DNA of 64,000 nucleotides, from NCBI RefSeq assembly GCF_900109575.1, contig NZ_FOAF01000002.1, positions 806,001-870,000 on the forward strand. Reading direction: 5' to 3'. The DNA is from Olivibacter domesticus (GTDB lineage: Bacteria; Bacteroidota; Bacteroidia; Sphingobacteriales; Sphingobacteriaceae). The position numbers and the translations under genes were made by a program. Below the pieces are notes generated by a model. It had not been told where the DNA came from, made no database searches, and saw only the letters and a list, made by a program, of their open reading frames with translations. Positions 10,306 to 22,827 of the stretch are shown one piece after another (the first letter of the stretch is position 1; the number at the start of each line of letters is the position of its first letter).

Positions 10306-13300
10306 TTAAAAGGATAAATTCACACCAGCGGAATAGGTACGCTGCAAAGGATATATTTTAGCGTCGCTAATAGATAATTCGGGATCCATTGTTTTGATCA
10401 GATCAGTAATGGTAAAGACATTATCTACGCTGATATAAAACCGTATCTTGCTGAATCCTATTTTATCCAATAAAGACTTCGGTAGGGAGTAGCCCAATTG
10501 TACATTTTTCAATCGCATGTATGCCGCATTCTGTAGATAACGCGTTTGGGTTTGGGTATTTTTTCCATTTTCACCAGTTAGATAAAACTTCGGGAAATAA
10601 CCGTTCGGATTTTCCGGGCTCCAACGGTCGTTATGCACATCAAAAACAGAGCTTTGCCATTCATCTCCTGTTATGCCCCAGAAATAATTGGAACCAATCC
10701 AGGCATCTCGTTTAGCAATACCTTGAATAAAAAATGTGAAATCAACGCTCTTCCAGTTTACATCACCCGTAAAACCATAAGCAAAGCGCGGTGTATTATT
10801 GCCGATAACACTTCTATCACCGGGATTGGAAATAGTATTATCTCCGAAATCAATCATGCCGTCTCCATTTACATCCACATAACGAACATCACCGACTTTC
10901 CATGTTTGGCCAGAAATACGTTGTTGAGAAGGTGCTCCATCGATTTCACCTTGATTCTGAAAGAGGCCGTAAGTGGTATATCCCCATATATCACCCATTT
11001 GCTGCCCTACATACCACGTAGAATTCAAGCCAGTTGGATTAGGATATCTTGTTACCTTACCTTGGTAATCGCTTAGCACAGCTCTTACACCATAAGCGAC
11101 TTCCCCTATTTTATCGCGCCATTGTAAACTTAATTCGAAACCCCTTGTTTCCATGCCAGCATTATTTGCACTTGGAGGTGTAGCCCCTAATACACCGGGC
11201 AAAGCCTCTGCCGGGCCAGCGAAATCATTGGCCTTTCTGATGTACCAGTCGAAAGAAGCACTTAAGCGTTCCCGTAAAAAGCTCATATCTGCACCAATAT
11301 TTAATGTTGTAGTTGTAACCCATGTTAAATCAGGATTTATTAATCCAGGTGGCGACACAGCCGCTTGCTGATTTCCACCAAACAACCAATTTGTTGTAGG
11401 TGGGCTCACTGTGCCTAGGTTAGGATAAAAAGGATACCAATTAGGATTGTTGGGATCAGTGTCAATAAAGGCCTGATCGCCGAGTGAGCCATAAGATCCT
11501 CTCAATTTAAAACTATTAACGGTGGTTTTAATGGATTCAAAAAACACCTCTTTATCCAGGTTCCATCCCAATGACACCCCCGGGTAAAACTTCCAGCGAA
11601 CAGGTCCTAAAAAGCGCGAGGTACCATCATATCTACCGTTAAATTCAAAGAGGTATTTCTGTTGGTAATTATAATTAACCCTTCCAAAAAAACCATCAGA
11701 CGCGAGCTTACGGGTGAAATCGCTTAATGAAGGAGCAGGACCATACGTACCAGACAAGGCCGGTATATTATCCGAGTAGAGTTGGTTGTTGCTAGCAGCA
11801 TATCGTTGATAATCGGTATAATCCCGGACAAAACCTCCCATTATACTAAAAAAATGATCGTCCAGCTGTTTTTCGTATTTAGTAAAAGCGTTAATGATAT
11901 GATGTTGAATACGGTAATTGGATCTACTGAAACCATTGGGGTACGTACCCCCTATTTGATATTGCGTACCATCAGGACGTCCAGAATAAAGTGTTTTCGT
12001 ATGTGAATTTTCATCTTGGAATGTACCATCGAAGGTATAGTTGGCCGTCGCAGTCCACCCCGGTGCTAGGTTGAATATAAACTCGCCCGTTAGCAAAGCT
12101 TTATCCAAGGTCGATTTTGTCCGTCCACCGAGCTCGTGAAGCAACACATCACTGGCATCTGAATAATTTCCATCTGGGTTAAGGAGTGGAACAGTGGGCC
12201 ATTTACGGGCAATCTGATGCATATAATTACCTCCCGTTTTGCCAGAATACGTATTGGGCGAGTTACTGAGTTCTTTTGAAAAGCTTCCGCGATAGCTGAA
12301 ATCCAACCATTTTGCAACAGCAGTTGTAAGATTGGTGCGCACATTAAATCGTTGATACTTGTCATTTCCGTAATTGTACATACCCGCACGATCATTATAC
12401 CCTAAACCAACATAGTAGTTGGTATTTTCAGAACCACCAGAAACCCCTACATTGTGCTGCTGGCTAAAAGCTAGATCTTTAAAATAGACGTCAAACCAAT
12501 CGTTATTGGCATTTCCCTTATCCCAAGTATAATATTCATTGGTACCTGCTTGTGGATTAACGATGGTTTCGGAATTCAGGGAACCATTTTGATAGGCGAT
12601 GATCCTATCCATCGTCTCTTGATTAAAAATTTCACTCCTGCCCCCATTTACAGCTGCCTCATTATAAAGATTGGCGAACGCTAACGAATTCAGCATCTTT
12701 GGCAAGTTAATGGGCGCTGCCAATCCCAATGTATTGTTATACGTAATTGCTGGTTTGCTCCCCTTTTTTCCCTGTTTTGTGGTGATAAGGATAACGCCAT
12801 ATGGCGCACTAGACCCATAAATAGCTGAAGAAGCAGCATCCTTTAACACGGATATGTTCTCAATATCATCCGGATTAAGCGCATTGATATCTCCACCCTG
12901 CACACCATCAATTACCACAAGTGGCCCACCGGTAGTTCCTAATCCGGTGTACCCACGTACATTGATACTCTGTGTAGCATTTGGCGCACCGCCACCACTT
13001 CCCGTAACAATGTTCAATCCCGGCATCTGCCCTTGCAAAGCCTGACTGACGCGAGAAATCGGTCTATTCTGTAATACTTCTCCACTAATTTGTGAAACAG
13101 CACCTGTTACGAGCGCCTTATTCTGCGTACCATAGCCTACCACCACTACTTCGTCTAGGTTGGCCAAATCTTGCTGTAGCACTACATCAAGGTCGCTGCC
13201 AACTGCTGTTATCTCCCGTCGCAAATAACCAATATAACTGAACACGAGCACCGCACCGCTTTTGCTTAAACTTAGGCGATACCGGCCCTCCACATCGGTC

Positions 13301-13920: not shown

Positions 13921-15039
13921 CTACATAGGCATCTTATTTTTTATGTAAATCTTCTTGTTGTTAATCTCAAATTTTAGCTCGCCAGTCCTTTCCATCATTT
14001 CCAAGACCTTTAATAAACTGACGTTTCTAGGTATATATCCATTATATGAATAATTCTTCACCCCATTAAATTCTACTTCAACATTATACCATCTACCTAA
14101 TTGATTCATAATTTCTCGTATCGACGTTTCATTGAAAACAAAATCACCATTTTTCCAAGCTAGCGTTTCTTCCATATCTGCCTCGGCAATAGCGATATCT
14201 GGCTTTGTCCCATTAATGATCGACTGTTGCCCTGGCTCGAGCAATTTCGATTGTTTTGTTTTGGAATTCATTACTTTAACACGACCTGTTACAAGTGTTG
14301 ACACCTCATTTATTTCTTCCGTATATGCTTTTACATTAAAGCTAGTTCCCAATACCACGATATTTTGTTCTCGTGTGTGAACAATAAATGGGCTGTCGCC
14401 CTTTCGTTTATCAACAGGCTGTTTAACTTCAAAGTAAGCTTCGCCAACGAGCTCTACCTCTCGCTGCTTTTCATTAAATTGAACAGGAAATTTAAGTCTT
14501 GTATCAGCATTAAGCCATACCATTGTACCGTCAGCTAGTGCAAGCTGATATTTTCCGCCTTTCGGTATAGATATTTCGTGATATAGTTCAGCAGTTTCCC
14601 GTTCAGGATTAATGTAGTAACTAATTTTACCATCCTTATCATTTAAGATCTGGATGCCTCCACTTTCAGAAATCCGATTTACAGTAGCATCCAGCTTAAC
14701 CCTTCGTCCATCCGCTAGCGTTAATATCGCCTGGTTACTTGCTGCGTGAATATCGCCTGCGATCGTTGCCGGTGCTGCATAATGCCCCTGTCTTTGATAG
14801 TAAAATACGATATACCCTAAAATACAAAATAGAATAAAAGCAGCGGCGTATGTATATGTCAATCGGAATGTTCTCTTTTTACCTTGACCGCTATAAAGCT
14901 GCTGGTCCATTGATTCAGCCAAATGAGCATCGATTTCTCCAGATCGAAGGAGCTGAGCAAAGACTTCCAACTCTTCATCAGTAGCCAAGCCATCCCGGTA
15001 CCTACGAATCAGGTTCCTATAAAAAGTGTCTTTGTCCAT
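13921..15039 (-). CDS. FecR family anti-sigma factor
   Basis: A 372-residue single-pass inner-membrane protein. The N-terminal cytoplasmic part (1-58) should bind the sigma factor. One membrane helix lies at about 61-80 (TYTYAAAFILFCILGYIVFY). The periplasmic FecR domain (about 155-255) contains IPKGGKYQLALADGTMVWLN and the pattern REVELVGEAYFEV. A C-terminal STN-like/DUF4974 segment (about 300-365; FNETSIREIMNQLGRWYNVE) probably contacts the transporter. It lies 89 bp after the sigma gene and before susC, the standard order. When SusC binds its ligand, FecR is expected to release the sigma factor. All domains appear intact. Confidence 0.95.
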   Translation of the reverse strand: MDKDTFYRNLIRRYRDGLATDEELEVFAQLLRSGEIDAHLAESMDQQLYSGQGKKRTFRLTYTYAAAFILFCILGYIVFYYQRQGHYAAPATIAGDIHAASNQAILTLADGRRVKLDATVNRISESGGIQILNDKDGKISYYINPERETAELYHEISIPKGGKYQLALADGTMVWLNADTRLKFPVQFNEKQREVELVGEAYFEVKQPVDKRKGDSPFIVHTREQNIVVLGTSFNVKAYTEEINEVSTLVTGRVKVMNSKTKQSKLLEPGQQSIINGTKPDIAIAEADMEETLAWKNGDFVFNETSIREIMNQLGRWYNVEVEFNGVKNYSYNGYIPRNVSLLKVLEMMERTGELKFEINNKKIYIKNKMPM

Positions 15040-15128
15040 TTGTTCTATGCTATTTGTCCAGCACTTCTAATTAAGACACTTGAGTAAGAATTTAGGGTAC
15101 CTAAGCGAAACAACTTTTTTTAAAAAAA

Positions 15129-15737
15129 TTAAAAGTTAAGATAAATAGTATAAAATATCCAGAAACAGACACACCAATGCACTTCCAGCGGACCCTCTAC
15201 TAATGCCTTTAACGTCTTCATCGTTTGTACCATATGTTTTTTTATGGCATTTCTGCTCACACCCATTTCTTTAGCCACTTCATCATACGTTTTCTGTTCC
15301 TCTCGACATAATTTGAATACTCTGCGAGCGGTTGGTGTCAAACTATTTAATGTTTCTTGCAAATAACGTTGGTATTCTTTCATTTGCAGATCGTCTTCAG
15401 TAGTCTTTTCATTTACAGGATAATGACTGAAGACCTCTTCTATTACCGCACGTGAATTGGCCACCTTTCTGAGGTTATTTAAGGTATGATTGCGGGCAAT
15501 AGTAAAAAGATAGGCCTTAAAGCACCTTACTTCCAGCATGTTTGTTCGATCATTCCAAATTTTAATAAAGATTTCCTGGCAAAGGTCTTGCGCCAAATCG
15601 GGAGATTTAACATAATCTAATACAAATGAATAGATCTGTTTAAAATATTTACTATATAGGCTGTAAAATGCTTTTTCATTACCAATTGCCAATTTCTTGA
15701 TTAAGATAGATTCATCCGGATTAAAATAGGCCTTCAT
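15129..15737 (-). CDS. ECF RNA polymerase sigma factor (FecI/SigZ-like, Bacteroidota type)
   Basis: A 202-residue sigma-70 family extracytoplasmic-function factor. Region 2 is recognised by YVKSPDLAQDLCQEIFIKIW and FKAYLFTIARNHTLNNLRK. Region 4 is recognised by LTPTARRVFKLCREEQKTYD and the helix-turn-helix EVAKEMGVSRNAIKKHMVQT. The C-terminus is unusually hydrophobic for a sigma factor (WCVCFWIFYTIYLNF), which occurs in some FecR-linked sigma factors of this phylum. It is the first gene of the PUL and probably activates the susC promoter after a signal passed through FecR. Confidence 0.95.
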   Translation of the reverse strand: MKAYFNPDESILIKKLAIGNEKAFYSLYSKYFKQIYSFVLDYVKSPDLAQDLCQEIFIKIWNDRTNMLEVRCFKAYLFTIARNHTLNNLRKVANSRAVIEEVFSHYPVNEKTTEDDLQMKEYQRYLQETLNSLTPTARRVFKLCREEQKTYDEVAKEMGVSRNAIKKHMVQTMKTLKALVEGPLEVHWCVCFWIFYTIYLNF

Positions 15738-19468: not shown

Positions 19469-19693
19469 TTACAACTCTAAATCAAAGGGGAGTTCAACGC
19501 AGCGATGGCCATGTTTTTTGAGAAGTGCTATTATATCTTCCACTTTAAAGGCAGCTCCCTCAATCCGCATAATTCTATCTTCATCCTCGAGATCAAAATT
19601 AATTCTCATACACGGATAGTCTCGCAAGAGGCCATCAACAATATTTGATACCTCCCGAGCATATGCTACATCTGTTCTGAAAACTTTTATCAT
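19469..19693 (-). CDS. Small HMA-fold-like protein without metal cysteines
   Basis: A 74-residue protein. The pattern IKVFRTDVAYAREVSNIVDG, then INFDLEDEDRIMRIEG and a C-terminal helix-strand, suggests the beta-alpha-beta-beta-alpha-beta fold of heavy-metal-associated domains. It lacks the CxxC metal site, as do similar small proteins that I recall from Sphingobacteriaceae. It lies 25 bp after the DUF6268 outer-membrane gene on the same strand, so the two probably share a transcript. Function is unknown and the fold call is from pattern only. Confidence 0.6.
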   Translation of the reverse strand: MIKVFRTDVAYAREVSNIVDGLLRDYPCMRINFDLEDEDRIMRIEGAAFKVEDIIALLKKHGHRCVELPFDLEL

Positions 19694-19718: not shown

Positions 19719-20747
19719 CTATTTTTTCTTCGCTAAAAATGAGGATGGATTGAACGATACACCTACGTTCACGTAAAATGTAGGGTCTGGACTTATTTGG
19801 AACACAGGATCCCCGAACGAATCTTCTTTTCTGAATAGCCTACCGGATGTGGTCAGTTTCATTCCAGTCTTTGCTGTAAGAATGAAATGTTTTGCCACAA
19901 TATGCTCGTACATCAATCCCGAATGGATATCCAACTGCCGGTATTCAAATCTTTGTGCGGTGCCGTCTATATCATACACATAAAAGGAAGTACCATTTAG
20001 CTCCGTTCCCAATGATATCCTTCCGTTGGTAAGCACATATTTCCGGAGATACGCACTTTTTGGCAGTACAATATCTGCAATTAAGCCGTTGTTGAATTTA
20101 TGTTCGTAGGAGAACGTTGGTATAAAAGGAGTTTGGGCACTCGGATCGATATTAGCAACCACTCCCACCATCAATTTAGTGCGTTCATTAGCCTTCAGCA
20201 CCATTGTTCCTGTTAATAAGCCCTTCACCCTTTCAAAATGCTGGTCGCTGCCATCCACCAGCAAGCTAGAGGTATAGATCATCCGTTTATTGAACAGCTT
20301 GGAGAAATAAGTAAAGTTAACTGCCGAAAAGAGGTAATGATAATCCTCGTTTACGGTCTTGACACCTGCCGACGCCGGCAGTGTCAAATCGGTTTCCAGT
20401 GATACATATCTATAACCAGCTGCGGCACCGAGGAGCCAGTTTTTCCTTTTTAAGAAGTTAAAGTTGGCACTAATATTTGCCTGCGCAAACTTATTCACTT
20501 TACTTTCAGGGATTGAGTTAGGCCCTTTGTCTGACGTAAATTTATAGGGAGCATTATGGGCGAATTCAATGTTCAAAGGGCGAACAATGGCGAATTTGTC
20601 GGCCGCATAAGCCACTGCCTTTTTTGAAATGTTAACGGAATCTTTTTTTTCTTTCGGTATACCGTCTTTGCTTTGTGAAAAAGAAGGTACTGCGCAGATA
20701 GTCAGCATACCGAACACAAGGAGGCTTGCTTTTTTCGTATTATTCAT
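19719..20747 (-). CDS. DUF6268-type outer-membrane beta-barrel protein
   Basis: A 342-residue exported protein (signal peptide to about residue 24, PSFSQ). The mature part is a series of alternating amphipathic strands ending in an aromatic pattern (DPTFYVNVGVSFNPSSF), as in outer-membrane barrels of the DUF6268 group. Segments such as LLGAAAGYRYVSLETDLTLP and YEHKFNNGLIADIVLPKSAY look like paired strands. The role may be a small pore or surface structure; no transport substrate is suggested. Its start lies 150 bp from a four-box symmetric operator shared with the divergent lytS-lytTR pair, which probably regulates it. Confidence 0.7.
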   Translation of the reverse strand: MNNTKKASLLVFGMLTICAVPSFSQSKDGIPKEKKDSVNISKKAVAYAADKFAIVRPLNIEFAHNAPYKFTSDKGPNSIPESKVNKFAQANISANFNFLKRKNWLLGAAAGYRYVSLETDLTLPASAGVKTVNEDYHYLFSAVNFTYFSKLFNKRMIYTSSLLVDGSDQHFERVKGLLTGTMVLKANERTKLMVGVVANIDPSAQTPFIPTFSYEHKFNNGLIADIVLPKSAYLRKYVLTNGRISLGTELNGTSFYVYDIDGTAQRFEYRQLDIHSGLMYEHIVAKHFILTAKTGMKLTTSGRLFRKEDSFGDPVFQISPDPTFYVNVGVSFNPSSFLAKKK

Positions 20748-20896
20748 CTAGTTTATTGATTTAATCTTTAAAGTATGTATCCATCCATATGTGCTGTGTA
20801 ACGATGTATTGCCGTTGTTTTTTTATTAATTTGATAGCCATTCGAACTAGTAAACGGAACAAAGAAAGGAATAACGTTCTAGCCATTTTTTCTTTT

Positions 20897-20972
20897 TATA
20901 CCAAACCTGTTACATTTTATACTAAAATCATTAGAAACAGCATTTAGTATAACAGAAAAGGGTTTTGGTATA
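20897..20972. promoter_or_regulatory. Symmetric four-box operator (TATACYAAA x4, 21-bp period)
   Basis: TATACCAAA (20897-20905) and TATACTAAA (20918-20926) lie on the plus strand. Their reverse complements TTTAGTATA (20943-20951) and TTTGGTATA (20964-20972) follow. Each pair repeats with exactly a 21-base period, and both pairs are mirror images about the same centre (20934.5). Direct repeats two helical turns apart are the usual target form of LytTR-domain regulators; E. coli YpdB uses two repeats with the same period. The array lies between the divergent DUF6268 gene and lytS-lytTR. Confidence 0.75.
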
Positions 20973-21019
20973 ATTTCCCGTGCAGGTCGGATATATTCCT
21001 TTTATCTTTGTTGAAATCC

Positions 21020-22102
21020 ATGAAATACGACCACTGTCTAGAAAAGGAAACAAAGATTATACAGCTGATTGTTGCTAATCGGTACCGGTATTTACGCCAT
21101 GCCATACTTTTACTTGGCACGGTTGTGACCATTGCATTCTCGACTGCAGTCACAGATTACTCCGGCGCATACAGCTATTTCAGACTGCTATGTATATCCA
21201 CTGCCCTAATAACGATGTCTTACGTCAATATGAATGTCTTGGTACCCATCTTTTTCTTCAGGGGCCGGTACATCGTTTATTTGGCACTCTTGATTTTATT
21301 AGTGCTAATCGGGAAGATACTGATGTCCAGCGCGTTGGATTCGACATTCATTGCAGCGCAACTGGGAACATATATGCATGAAAGAAATGATTATAAAATG
21401 GGATCCTATGAGGGCACCATCATATTGGTGTCTGTCATCCTGATAACCACAACGATCAAATTGTTTCAGCGGTGGATGAGAGATAAAGAAAGAATTACCG
21501 AACTGCGAAACCTCACTTTAAGCATGGAGCTCAGCGAATTGCGAAACCAGATCAATCCTCATTTTCTCTTTAATATGCTTAATGGGATCAAAGCGCTAGT
21601 ACGTGGCAATCCAGAGAAAGCCACTACGGTCATCATGAAACTATCCGAATTCCTTCGCTACCAGCTTTATGAGAACAACGAAGAGAAGACTTTACTGATG
21701 TCGGAGATCAATTTTTTATCCAACTTTCTTGACCTGGAAAAACTCAGAAGAGATAACCTTTCGGTTGACATCATCAATAGCACAGATCCTCCGATGTTAA
21801 ATCACATCTTTTTGCCTCCTAACCTATTTACCACTTTTGTAGAAAACGCCGTAAAGCATAGCGTAAATATCAGCGGAGCAGCGTCCTATGTTAAGATCAA
21901 CCTTGAAGTTAAAAATAATGAAGTTCATTTCCACTGCGTGAATTCGATAGATCCCCTCTATATACCCATCGATGAAAAACACAGCGGATTGGGATTAGCG
22001 AATATCAAAAGACGGCTTGACCTCTTATATGGCAACAAACACGTTCTTAAGATCACTCCCACAGAAAACGAATATGATGTTAAATTAACCATACCTATAT
22101 GA
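21020..22102 (+). CDS. LytS/YehU-type sensor histidine kinase (His_kinase PF06580)
   Basis: A 360-residue membrane kinase. I start at ATG 21020, because the longer frame begins with TTG. Four membrane helices span about 20-140 without a recognisable sensor domain. The kinase part contains the signature LRNQINPHFLFNMLNGIKAL with phospho-acceptor His181. An ATPase domain follows, with FVENAVKHSV (N box) and HSGLGLANIKRRLDLLYG (G2). The kinase stop overlaps the start of the LytTR regulator by 4 bases (ATGA), so the two are co-translated and form a two-component system. A TATCTTTG box at 21003-21010 fits the -7 consensus, but it is so close to the ATG that it would give an almost leaderless mRNA. 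Confidence 0.92.
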   Translation: MKYDHCLEKETKIIQLIVANRYRYLRHAILLLGTVVTIAFSTAVTDYSGAYSYFRLLCISTALITMSYVNMNVLVPIFFFRGRYIVYLALLILLVLIGKILMSSALDSTFIAAQLGTYMHERNDYKMGSYEGTIILVSVILITTTIKLFQRWMRDKERITELRNLTLSMELSELRNQINPHFLFNMLNGIKALVRGNPEKATTVIMKLSEFLRYQLYENNEEKTLLMSEINFLSNFLDLEKLRRDNLSVDIINSTDPPMLNHIFLPPNLFTTFVENAVKHSVNISGAASYVKINLEVKNNEVHFHCVNSIDPLYIPIDEKHSGLGLANIKRRLDLLYGNKHVLKITPTENEYDVKLTIPI

Positions 22103-22827
22103 ATTGTATTATTGTAGACGACGAACCATTGGCAAGGGAAGAAATGCAGGCACTGATCAAAGAAGTGTCGGAAATAGAAATATTGGGAAAGTTTCCCAAT
22201 GCCCCTGCTGCGTTAAGCTTCTTAAAAGTAAATGAAATAGACCTTATTTTTCTTGATATTGAAATGCCGATGGTAACTGGGCTGGAATTTGCTGCACAAT
22301 TACCCAAACAGGCCCTTACTATTTTTACAACAGCCTACCCACAGTATGCCTTAAAAAGTTACGAGCTGGATGCAATTGATTACCTGCTCAAACCTATCGA
22401 AAAAAACCGACTTCAAAAGGCAATAAAAAAAGCAGAAGTATACAAACAGCTGCTTTCGGATAATACGGAGAAGAACACCATAGAAACCAATACGGCTGAC
22501 TTTTTGCTAATTAAATCTGACCGCAAGTTCCATCGCATAAACTTCAGCGATATCAAATTTATTGAGGGCCTGAAAGATTATGTAGTGATATATGTGGGTA
22601 ACCAGAAACTCATTACCGCCATGAACTTGAAGACCATTCACCAAAAGATCCCCCAGCATCTTTTTCTACGGGTTAGCAAATCCTATGTAGTAAATATAGG
22701 TTATATTGATTCATTTGATCACCGAAGCATCTATTTAGGTGAATTTGAGGTTCCATTGGGCGATGTTTATAAAAAGGATTTTTTTACGATCTATGCCGGT
22801 GGCGCGCTCGATCCTGAAAATGAATAA
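22099..22827 (+). CDS. LytTR-family response regulator
   Basis: A 242-residue regulator. The receiver domain (1-120) has the acidic pocket VDDEP (residues 6-10), phospho-acceptor Asp53 in FLDIEMP, and conserved Lys in LLKPIEKNRL. The LytTR DNA-binding domain (about 135-235) has FLLIKSDRKFHRINFSDIKF, then GLKDYVVIY and FLRVSKSYVVNIGYID. LytTR domains bind direct repeats about two helical turns apart. The TATACYAAA array at 20897-20972, directly upstream of this operon, has that geometry and is the likely target. The kinase is encoded just upstream with a 4-base overlap. Confidence 0.95.
   Translation: MNCIIVDDEPLAREEMQALIKEVSEIEILGKFPNAPAALSFLKVNEIDLIFLDIEMPMVTGLEFAAQLPKQALTIFTTAYPQYALKSYELDAIDYLLKPIEKNRLQKAIKKAEVYKQLLSDNTEKNTIETNTADFLLIKSDRKFHRINFSDIKFIEGLKDYVVIYVGNQKLITAMNLKTIHQKIPQHLFLRVSKSYVVNIGYIDSFDHRSIYLGEFEVPLGDVYKKDFFTIYAGGALDPENE

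Follow-up and report, generated by a model that had tools for sequence, protein, structure and literature searches.

Mirrored LytTR-type direct repeats between divergent operons of Olivibacter domesticus probably mark two separable outward promoters

Between two divergent operons of Olivibacter domesticus we find four copies of a 9-bp box, arranged as one direct repeat on each strand so that the two mirror each other. We read this array, with a probability of about 85%, as two back-to-back LytTR-regulated promoters, separable modules of which each serves one of the divergent operons. Two molecules of the LytTR response regulator encoded nearby would bind each pair of boxes (TTTNGTATA, read towards its own promoter), and each pair would sit just upstream of a Bacteroidota-type promoter with its -7 element 29 to 30 bp further out. 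Activation of lytS-lytTR by way of the right pair would be a positive autoregulation, and the left pair would activate the divergent operon, with its genes for a DUF6268-type and a small HMA-like protein; with both promoters activated, sensing and response would rise together. The mirror symmetry would then exist because two like promoters face away from each other. We infer that this regulator binds the pairs, that it activates and does not repress, and that its action depends on phosphorylation.

All positions refer to the window, the whole stretch of 64,000 nucleotides that was analyzed. The array lies in the 272-bp gap (30.5% G+C) between the DUF gene and the lytS ATG. Both pairs read TATACYAAA-N12-TATACYAAA, one per strand (9 + 12 + 9 bp, period 21 bp), and the outer boxes and the inner boxes have a common center at 20934.5, confirming the four boxes, the 21-bp period, and the shared center described in an earlier note on this DNA. 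The direct repeat of Escherichia coli YpdB also has a period of 21 bp. In 20,000 Markov-1 simulations of the intergenic region, we observe no pair and no mirror. Across the window, TATACYAAA occurs six times against 1.91 expected (six or more in 1 of 100 shuffles), with further single boxes at 11842 (+) and 58550 (-). The exact pair is found at two places in the 6.78-Mb genome, both at this locus, the next best having one mismatch; with up to three mismatches, the genome holds 54 + 63 pairs compared to 68 + 45 for a backwards control, which is about equal.

Table 1. Boxes, predicted promoter elements, and flanking genes in the window
Feature	Position	Strand	Evidence
Outer box of left pair, TATACCAAA	20897..20905	+	box scan
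Inner box of left pair, TATACTAAA, 21 bp from outer box	20918..20926	+	box scan
Inner box of right pair, TATACTAAA	20943..20951	-	box scan
Outer box of right pair, TATACCAAA	20964..20972	-	box scan
-7-like element TTTCTTTG, leftward promoter, 29 bp outside outer box	20860..20867	-	
-7-like element TATCTTTG, rightward promoter, 30 bp outside outer box	21003..21010	+	
lytS-type sensor histidine kinase	21020..22102	+	His_kinase PF06580, 4.2e-23
LytTR response regulator, overlaps lytS	22099..22827	+	Response_reg 7e-20, LytTR PF04397 7.5e-17
Divergent 342-aa gene, relative of a DUF6268 protein	19719..20747	-	orthology, predicted structure
74-aa protein, predicted HMA-like fold	19469..19693	-	predicted structure

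A regulator query against one-per-species genomes gave at least 577 confirmed relatives, of which the best 80 (65 to 85% identity) were kept; with the window, they form a set of 81 loci. Both pairs are present with at most two mismatches each in 78 of the 81, with at most one each in 51, and with none in 11. Upstream of lytS, an N12 pair with at most two mismatches to TATACNAAA occurs on the plus strand in 79/81 loci and on the minus strand in 80/81, and the Markov-1 null mean for pairs over the 81 loci is about 0.1. This enrichment is limited to the 12-bp spacer, every other spacer between 6 and 18 bp giving 0 to 6 loci of 81. The loci without both pairs are L073, with the left one only, and L108 and L109, with the right one only. 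The genera among the relatives are Chitinophaga, Pedobacter, Sphingobacterium, Olivibacter, Mucilaginibacter, Flavobacterium, Chryseobacterium, and Dysgonomonas, and the loci span four orders of Bacteroidota (Chitinophagales, Sphingobacteriales, Flavobacteriales, and Bacteroidales). Since 46 of the 80 relatives are Chryseobacterium, the counts are of sequences and not of independent lineages. A lytS match adjoins the regulator in all 80 relatives, and a match to the DUF protein is found in 62. The earlier note had proposed that LytTR-type direct repeats here control the regulator's operon as well as the divergent one, and had named loss of the boxes beside retained flanking genes as evidence against this; we observe the opposite, and the computed link between box and regulator clade described below lends the proposal further support. 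Four Pedobacter loci (L048, L050, L052, and L053) have five boxes, three on the plus strand 21 bp apart opposite two on the minus strand.

Conservation in bits was taken from 34 representatives with less than 85% regulator identity. Fixed positions of the left outer box carry 1.7 to 2.0 bits, save for the last A (1.0), with 0.6 at the N position; values at the fixed positions are 1.7 to 2.0 bits in the left inner box, 1.6 to 2.0 in the right inner box save for the last A (1.1), and 2.0 in the right outer box save for the last A (0.7). The N position of the box is free in these representatives. Bases adjoining the boxes are partly conserved, mainly on the left, where this holds for the AAAA that follows TTTNGTATA and for some positions of the spacer. 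Beyond them conservation is lower, with 0.0 to 0.5 bits at most right-side positions, up to a conserved block about 29 bp past the outer box that reads TTYCTTTG on the left and TATCTTTG or TATTTTTG on the right. Within the mirrored loci, T[AT]nnTTTG stands at an offset of 28 to 29 on 75/78 left sides and of 28 to 30 on 74/78 right sides; on the left, TTnT also stands out at offsets 23 to 26. We take the T[AT]nnTTTG block to be the Bacteroidota -7 element, presuming a consensus of TAnnTTTG. For Bacteroides LytTR operons, TATCTTTG is given in the available part of one report (PMC6193735). Because a -7-like element lies at a near-constant offset on both sides, the array is, as far as sequence can tell, two outward predicted promoters with one LytTR-type site each. 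The -33 positions of the window (GTGC and AAAA) do not fit TTTG, a misfit that would suit an activator-dependent promoter and proves nothing.

On the right, the ATG at 21020 was assumed as the start of lytS, and an in-frame TTG lies at 21008. We also considered the regulator as a BtsR (NCBIfam equivalog PRK11697), but it scores 137.8 bits against a cut-off of 246 and is therefore not a BtsR equivalog. On the left, the label DUF6268 given earlier holds by way of an ortholog: PF19783 (DUF6268) matches L105 at 8.8e-11, whose protein is 42% identical to the 342-aa protein of the window, and matches neither the latter protein itself nor that of L055. A model of the 342-aa protein from 30 sequences (mean pLDDT, 77; pTM, 0.71) has a low-confidence N-terminus, and beta-strands make up most of the rest. 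Foldseek gave it 57 matches with E values up to 0.001, and the 50 listed matches are outer-membrane barrels, such as OmpG, CymA, FadL, and FapF, with TM-scores of at most 0.45; judging from the model, the protein is probably an outer-membrane barrel.

The 74-aa gene is probably the second gene of the divergent operon, and a relative of its protein is present in 19/80 loci. Its model is a beta-alpha-beta-beta-alpha-beta fold (mean pLDDT, 89.7) for which copper chaperones are the best Foldseek matches (top, Atox1 with E of 1.1e-3; none below 0.001). The earlier description as HMA-like is thus borne out by the predicted fold and not by the CxxC motif, which is absent from all 15 aligned sequences, and we rejected a metal-binding HMA domain on this ground. 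A stretch D-L-E-D-x-D...R-[IV]-E-G is conserved in the same 15 sequences.

The left promoter directly faces the DUF gene in the window and in Chitinophaga isolates. In Chryseobacterium and in some Pedobacter and Sphingobacterium loci, a gene for 142 to 150 aa comes first, followed by the DUF gene where present; this small gene lies mostly 46 to 63 bp from the left pair (with longer frames in L059 and L066 and none in L078). L103 and L107 contain the small gene and keep the left pair, with the DUF match absent. The protein of the small gene, which is conserved and starts like MELTVFQELTEQITLECFFMTDSQQEEK, is first in L037, L044, L045, L054, L066, L079, L103, and L107 and also in most Chryseobacterium loci, and is absent from the window. 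Elsewhere in the window (13921-15737, minus strand), ECF sigma factor-like and FecR-type anti-sigma-like genes are seen by eye, apparently unrelated to the array.

The box tracks the clade of the regulator. The genome has 30 LytTR domains, two of which gave no regulator frame, leaving 28 LytTR operons that were scanned, window included. Only three of these, the window, L165, and L166, contain an N12 pair with at most one mismatch upstream. A BLAST search of the window regulator against the 27 paralogs places L166 (54%) and L165 (50%) first, with 24 below 40% and one without a match. All three regulators begin MNCIIVDDEPLAR and the same box is found upstream of each, in L165 and L166 as box ladders in one direction only.

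We surveyed 201 genomes of the window's order, which come from one family, probably Sphingobacteriaceae, since L186 (G067) repeats the sequence of the Pedobacter locus L106. Regulator matches at an E value of 1e-75 number 30 and stem from 26 of the 201 genomes, and two genomes of the window's own genus gave no match at that threshold; the system is therefore patchy. The 17 survey loci with 59 to 100% identity all contain a pair and 16 contain both (L188, right only), but they include the window itself and seven repeats of named loci, so that the family survey is not an independent sample; both pairs are found in 9/9 survey loci that do not overlap named loci. Among the 13 loci with 48 to 57% identity, 11 have a lytS-side pair, the exceptions being L203 and L207. 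With TATACNAAA, the full mirror of four exact boxes is present in 2/201 family genomes and in 1/395 phylum genomes (the window's own only), and its backwards control has 0 matches in those 201 and 395 genomes. As a survey pattern over genomes the exact mirror is too strict, because the final base of a box varies in many copies from Chryseobacterium. The exact single pair is not commoner in the 201 genomes than its backwards control (32 places versus about 42, of which 11 come from one genome), and 23 of the 32 lie inside the 30 regulator loci. L183, L190, and L193 have a further exact pair about 290 to 350 bp downstream of the regulator match, which suggests another target gene of the system. 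In addition, L116 and L117, from two genomes of one genus, contain an exact pair (1501-1530 in each). It lies between two divergent genes of carotenoid type, which by eye resemble those for phytoene desaturase and phytoene synthase, and neither 3-kb locus includes a lytS.

A published LytTR site consists of two repeats of about 9 bp, spaced by about 12 bp, just upstream of a promoter (available parts of PMC2766830 and PMC6193735). The array agrees with this in repeat size and spacing, in its position upstream of a predicted core promoter, and in the adjoining LytTR regulator (PF04397); as in agr and sil, each of the two predicted outward promoters has a site of its own, and both sites lie between divergent operons. 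In the Staphylococcus agr P2-P3 region (PMC4227749), LytTR direct repeats bound by AgrA lie between divergent promoters, immediately upstream of each, and one promoter drives the regulator's own operon. The agr region differs in phylum, box, and promoter type, in that P3 yields the regulatory RNA RNAIII, and in the binding of SarA between the agr sites; in the array, the two pairs mirror each other exactly, and the partner operon is that of the DUF6268-type protein. At streptococcal sil P3/P4, each divergent promoter likewise has its own LytTR direct repeat (DR1 and DR2, for SilA; PMC2766830, in part), but the repeats are of 10 bp with an 11-bp spacer, the system is peptide activated, and the regulator's own operon is expressed from P1. 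Closer by phylum, LRS-like operons of Bacteroides thetaiotaomicron and B. ovatus have LytTR direct repeats just upstream of a TATCTTTG promoter, and the B. thetaiotaomicron repeat TCCGGTATTCA has GGTAT in common with TTTGGTATA of the array; they differ in their 11-bp repeats with 11-bp spacing and in a membrane protein instead of a kinase, and no mirrored site is mentioned in the portion of the source available (PMC6193735). E. coli YpdB (yhjX promoter) and BtsR are LytS/LytTR two-component systems too; YpdB occupies the two sites of its direct repeat cooperatively, one after the other, and the accessible part of PMC4847170 mentions no mirrored site, unlike the array. Given the agr P2/P3 and sil P3/P4 sites, the architecture of the array is already known. 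For Bacteroidota, the phylum to which the earlier note had confined its remark, the open-licence literature gave us no case of two LytTR sites in one divergent gap. As far as that literature shows, what is new is the exact mirror, together with the box, the type of promoter, and the partner operon; we found no description of the array in open-licence work on LytTR in Bacteroidetes or Flavobacterium and on DUF6268, or in the part of PMC10197871 available.

How the two pairs are spaced, and where they come apart, bears on whether they need each other. Pair start to pair start measures 43 to 47 bp in 65/78 mirrored loci, mostly 45 to 46 bp, compared to 47 to 67 from the right pair to lytS (78 loci), so that the center is kept rather narrow; exceptional spacings are 32, 35, 49, 53-54, 57-58, 64 (the five-box version), and 79-80. 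In L109 (Mucilaginibacter sp. OK268), a hydrolase-like gene stands between the two operons. The displaced small gene has a plus-strand pair (one mismatch) at a distance of 46 bp, a minus-strand pair (two mismatches) stands before lytS, and beside each pair there is no counterpart with fewer than five mismatches. L108 has the lytS side and a left relic with five mismatches. L110 has both pairs at lytS (zero and one mismatches), and 3.3 kb away the region recurs in a copy whose left pair is intact and whose right pair has five mismatches. These patterns indicate that pairs persist where their own promoter persists, although, as L110 shows, loss is not inevitable. The duplicated intergenic regions in Mucilaginibacter lie about 1.2 kb (L109) and 3.3 kb (L110) upstream of lytS, and their pairs erode unequally. 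In a paralogous system, lytS and a gene that by eye looks like a TonB-type receptor each have a correctly oriented pair. The pair starts are 92 bp apart in L212, 218 bp in L210, and 323 bp in L211, each time within a single gap; in the window's own genome (L209), the distance is 1,788 bp, with two genes between. This last stretch (L209:3749-5566) corresponds to C10:1642248-1644065 of the genome, the intervening genes being SDR-like and HxlR-like by eye. T[AT]nnTTTG is found on 3/4 lytS sides and 0/4 receptor sides of the paralogous system.

The narrow spacing is tighter than purely modular promoters require, and it favors the alternative that the mirror itself is the functional unit, in which left and right dimers would touch as a tetramer or across a loop and give cooperative, switch-like control with both promoters coupled. 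Some of the exceptional spacings (35 and 57-58) are also about one helical turn off. However, helical phasing of the unusual spacings with the mode is not significant (P of 0.23 to 0.31 for six lineages and of 0.25 to 0.40 for seven lineages including L072), pairs survive apart in Mucilaginibacter and far apart in the paralogous system, and in sil, P3 stays active after deletion of the region with P4 and DR2 (PMC2766830, in part). We therefore regard this alternative as quite unlikely. The absence of significant phasing and the separated loci likewise make an obligate tetramer on the mirrored pairs unlikely and tell against the tetramer or switch that the earlier note had envisaged as needing both mirrored sites. 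Weak cooperativity between the pairs may occur, and if LytTR coupling of divergent promoters were real, it would be a use for which we found no report in the open-licence literature.

Even with two separable promoters, a paralog of the same clade (L165 or L166) could bind the array instead of the window regulator or together with it, cross-wiring the three systems. The shared start, the common upstream box, and the rank of L166 and L165 as the most similar regulators of the genome speak for this; against it, the array adjoins an ortholog of the window regulator in 78/81 loci, the usual sign of autoregulation, and we consider such binding unlikely. Very unlikely, in our judgment, is a repressor role of the pairs, or repression by one of them and activation by the other. 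Repression of bsaA by AgrA, through a site directly downstream of the bsaA promoter, is reported (PMC4227749), but both pairs of the array lie upstream of the -7 elements at near-equal distance, as at activated LytTR promoters, and HdrRM provides positive feedback via direct repeats just upstream of its promoter (PMC6193735, in part). That the array arose by chance in intergenic DNA rich in A and T has next to no probability. The genome-wide parity of single pairs with the backwards control is what one would expect from chance, but the position-specific conservation far above the null mean, the lack of any mirror in the simulations, and the concentration of exact pairs at regulator loci oppose it, and the enrichment at N12 only over 81 loci together with the conserved -7 offset refutes it.

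Two separable LytTR-regulated promoters would provide a recognition sequence and a promoter layout, both open to testing, for a LytS/LytTR clade that occurs in four or more orders of Bacteroidota, a phylum for which one report on LytTR sites (PMC6193735) was found in the open-licence literature. The Mucilaginibacter loci offer a natural experiment on how a divergent promoter region splits. Finally, an uncharacterized protein family and its small partner genes would be tied to a sensor, and further targets of the system would become predictable from sequence.
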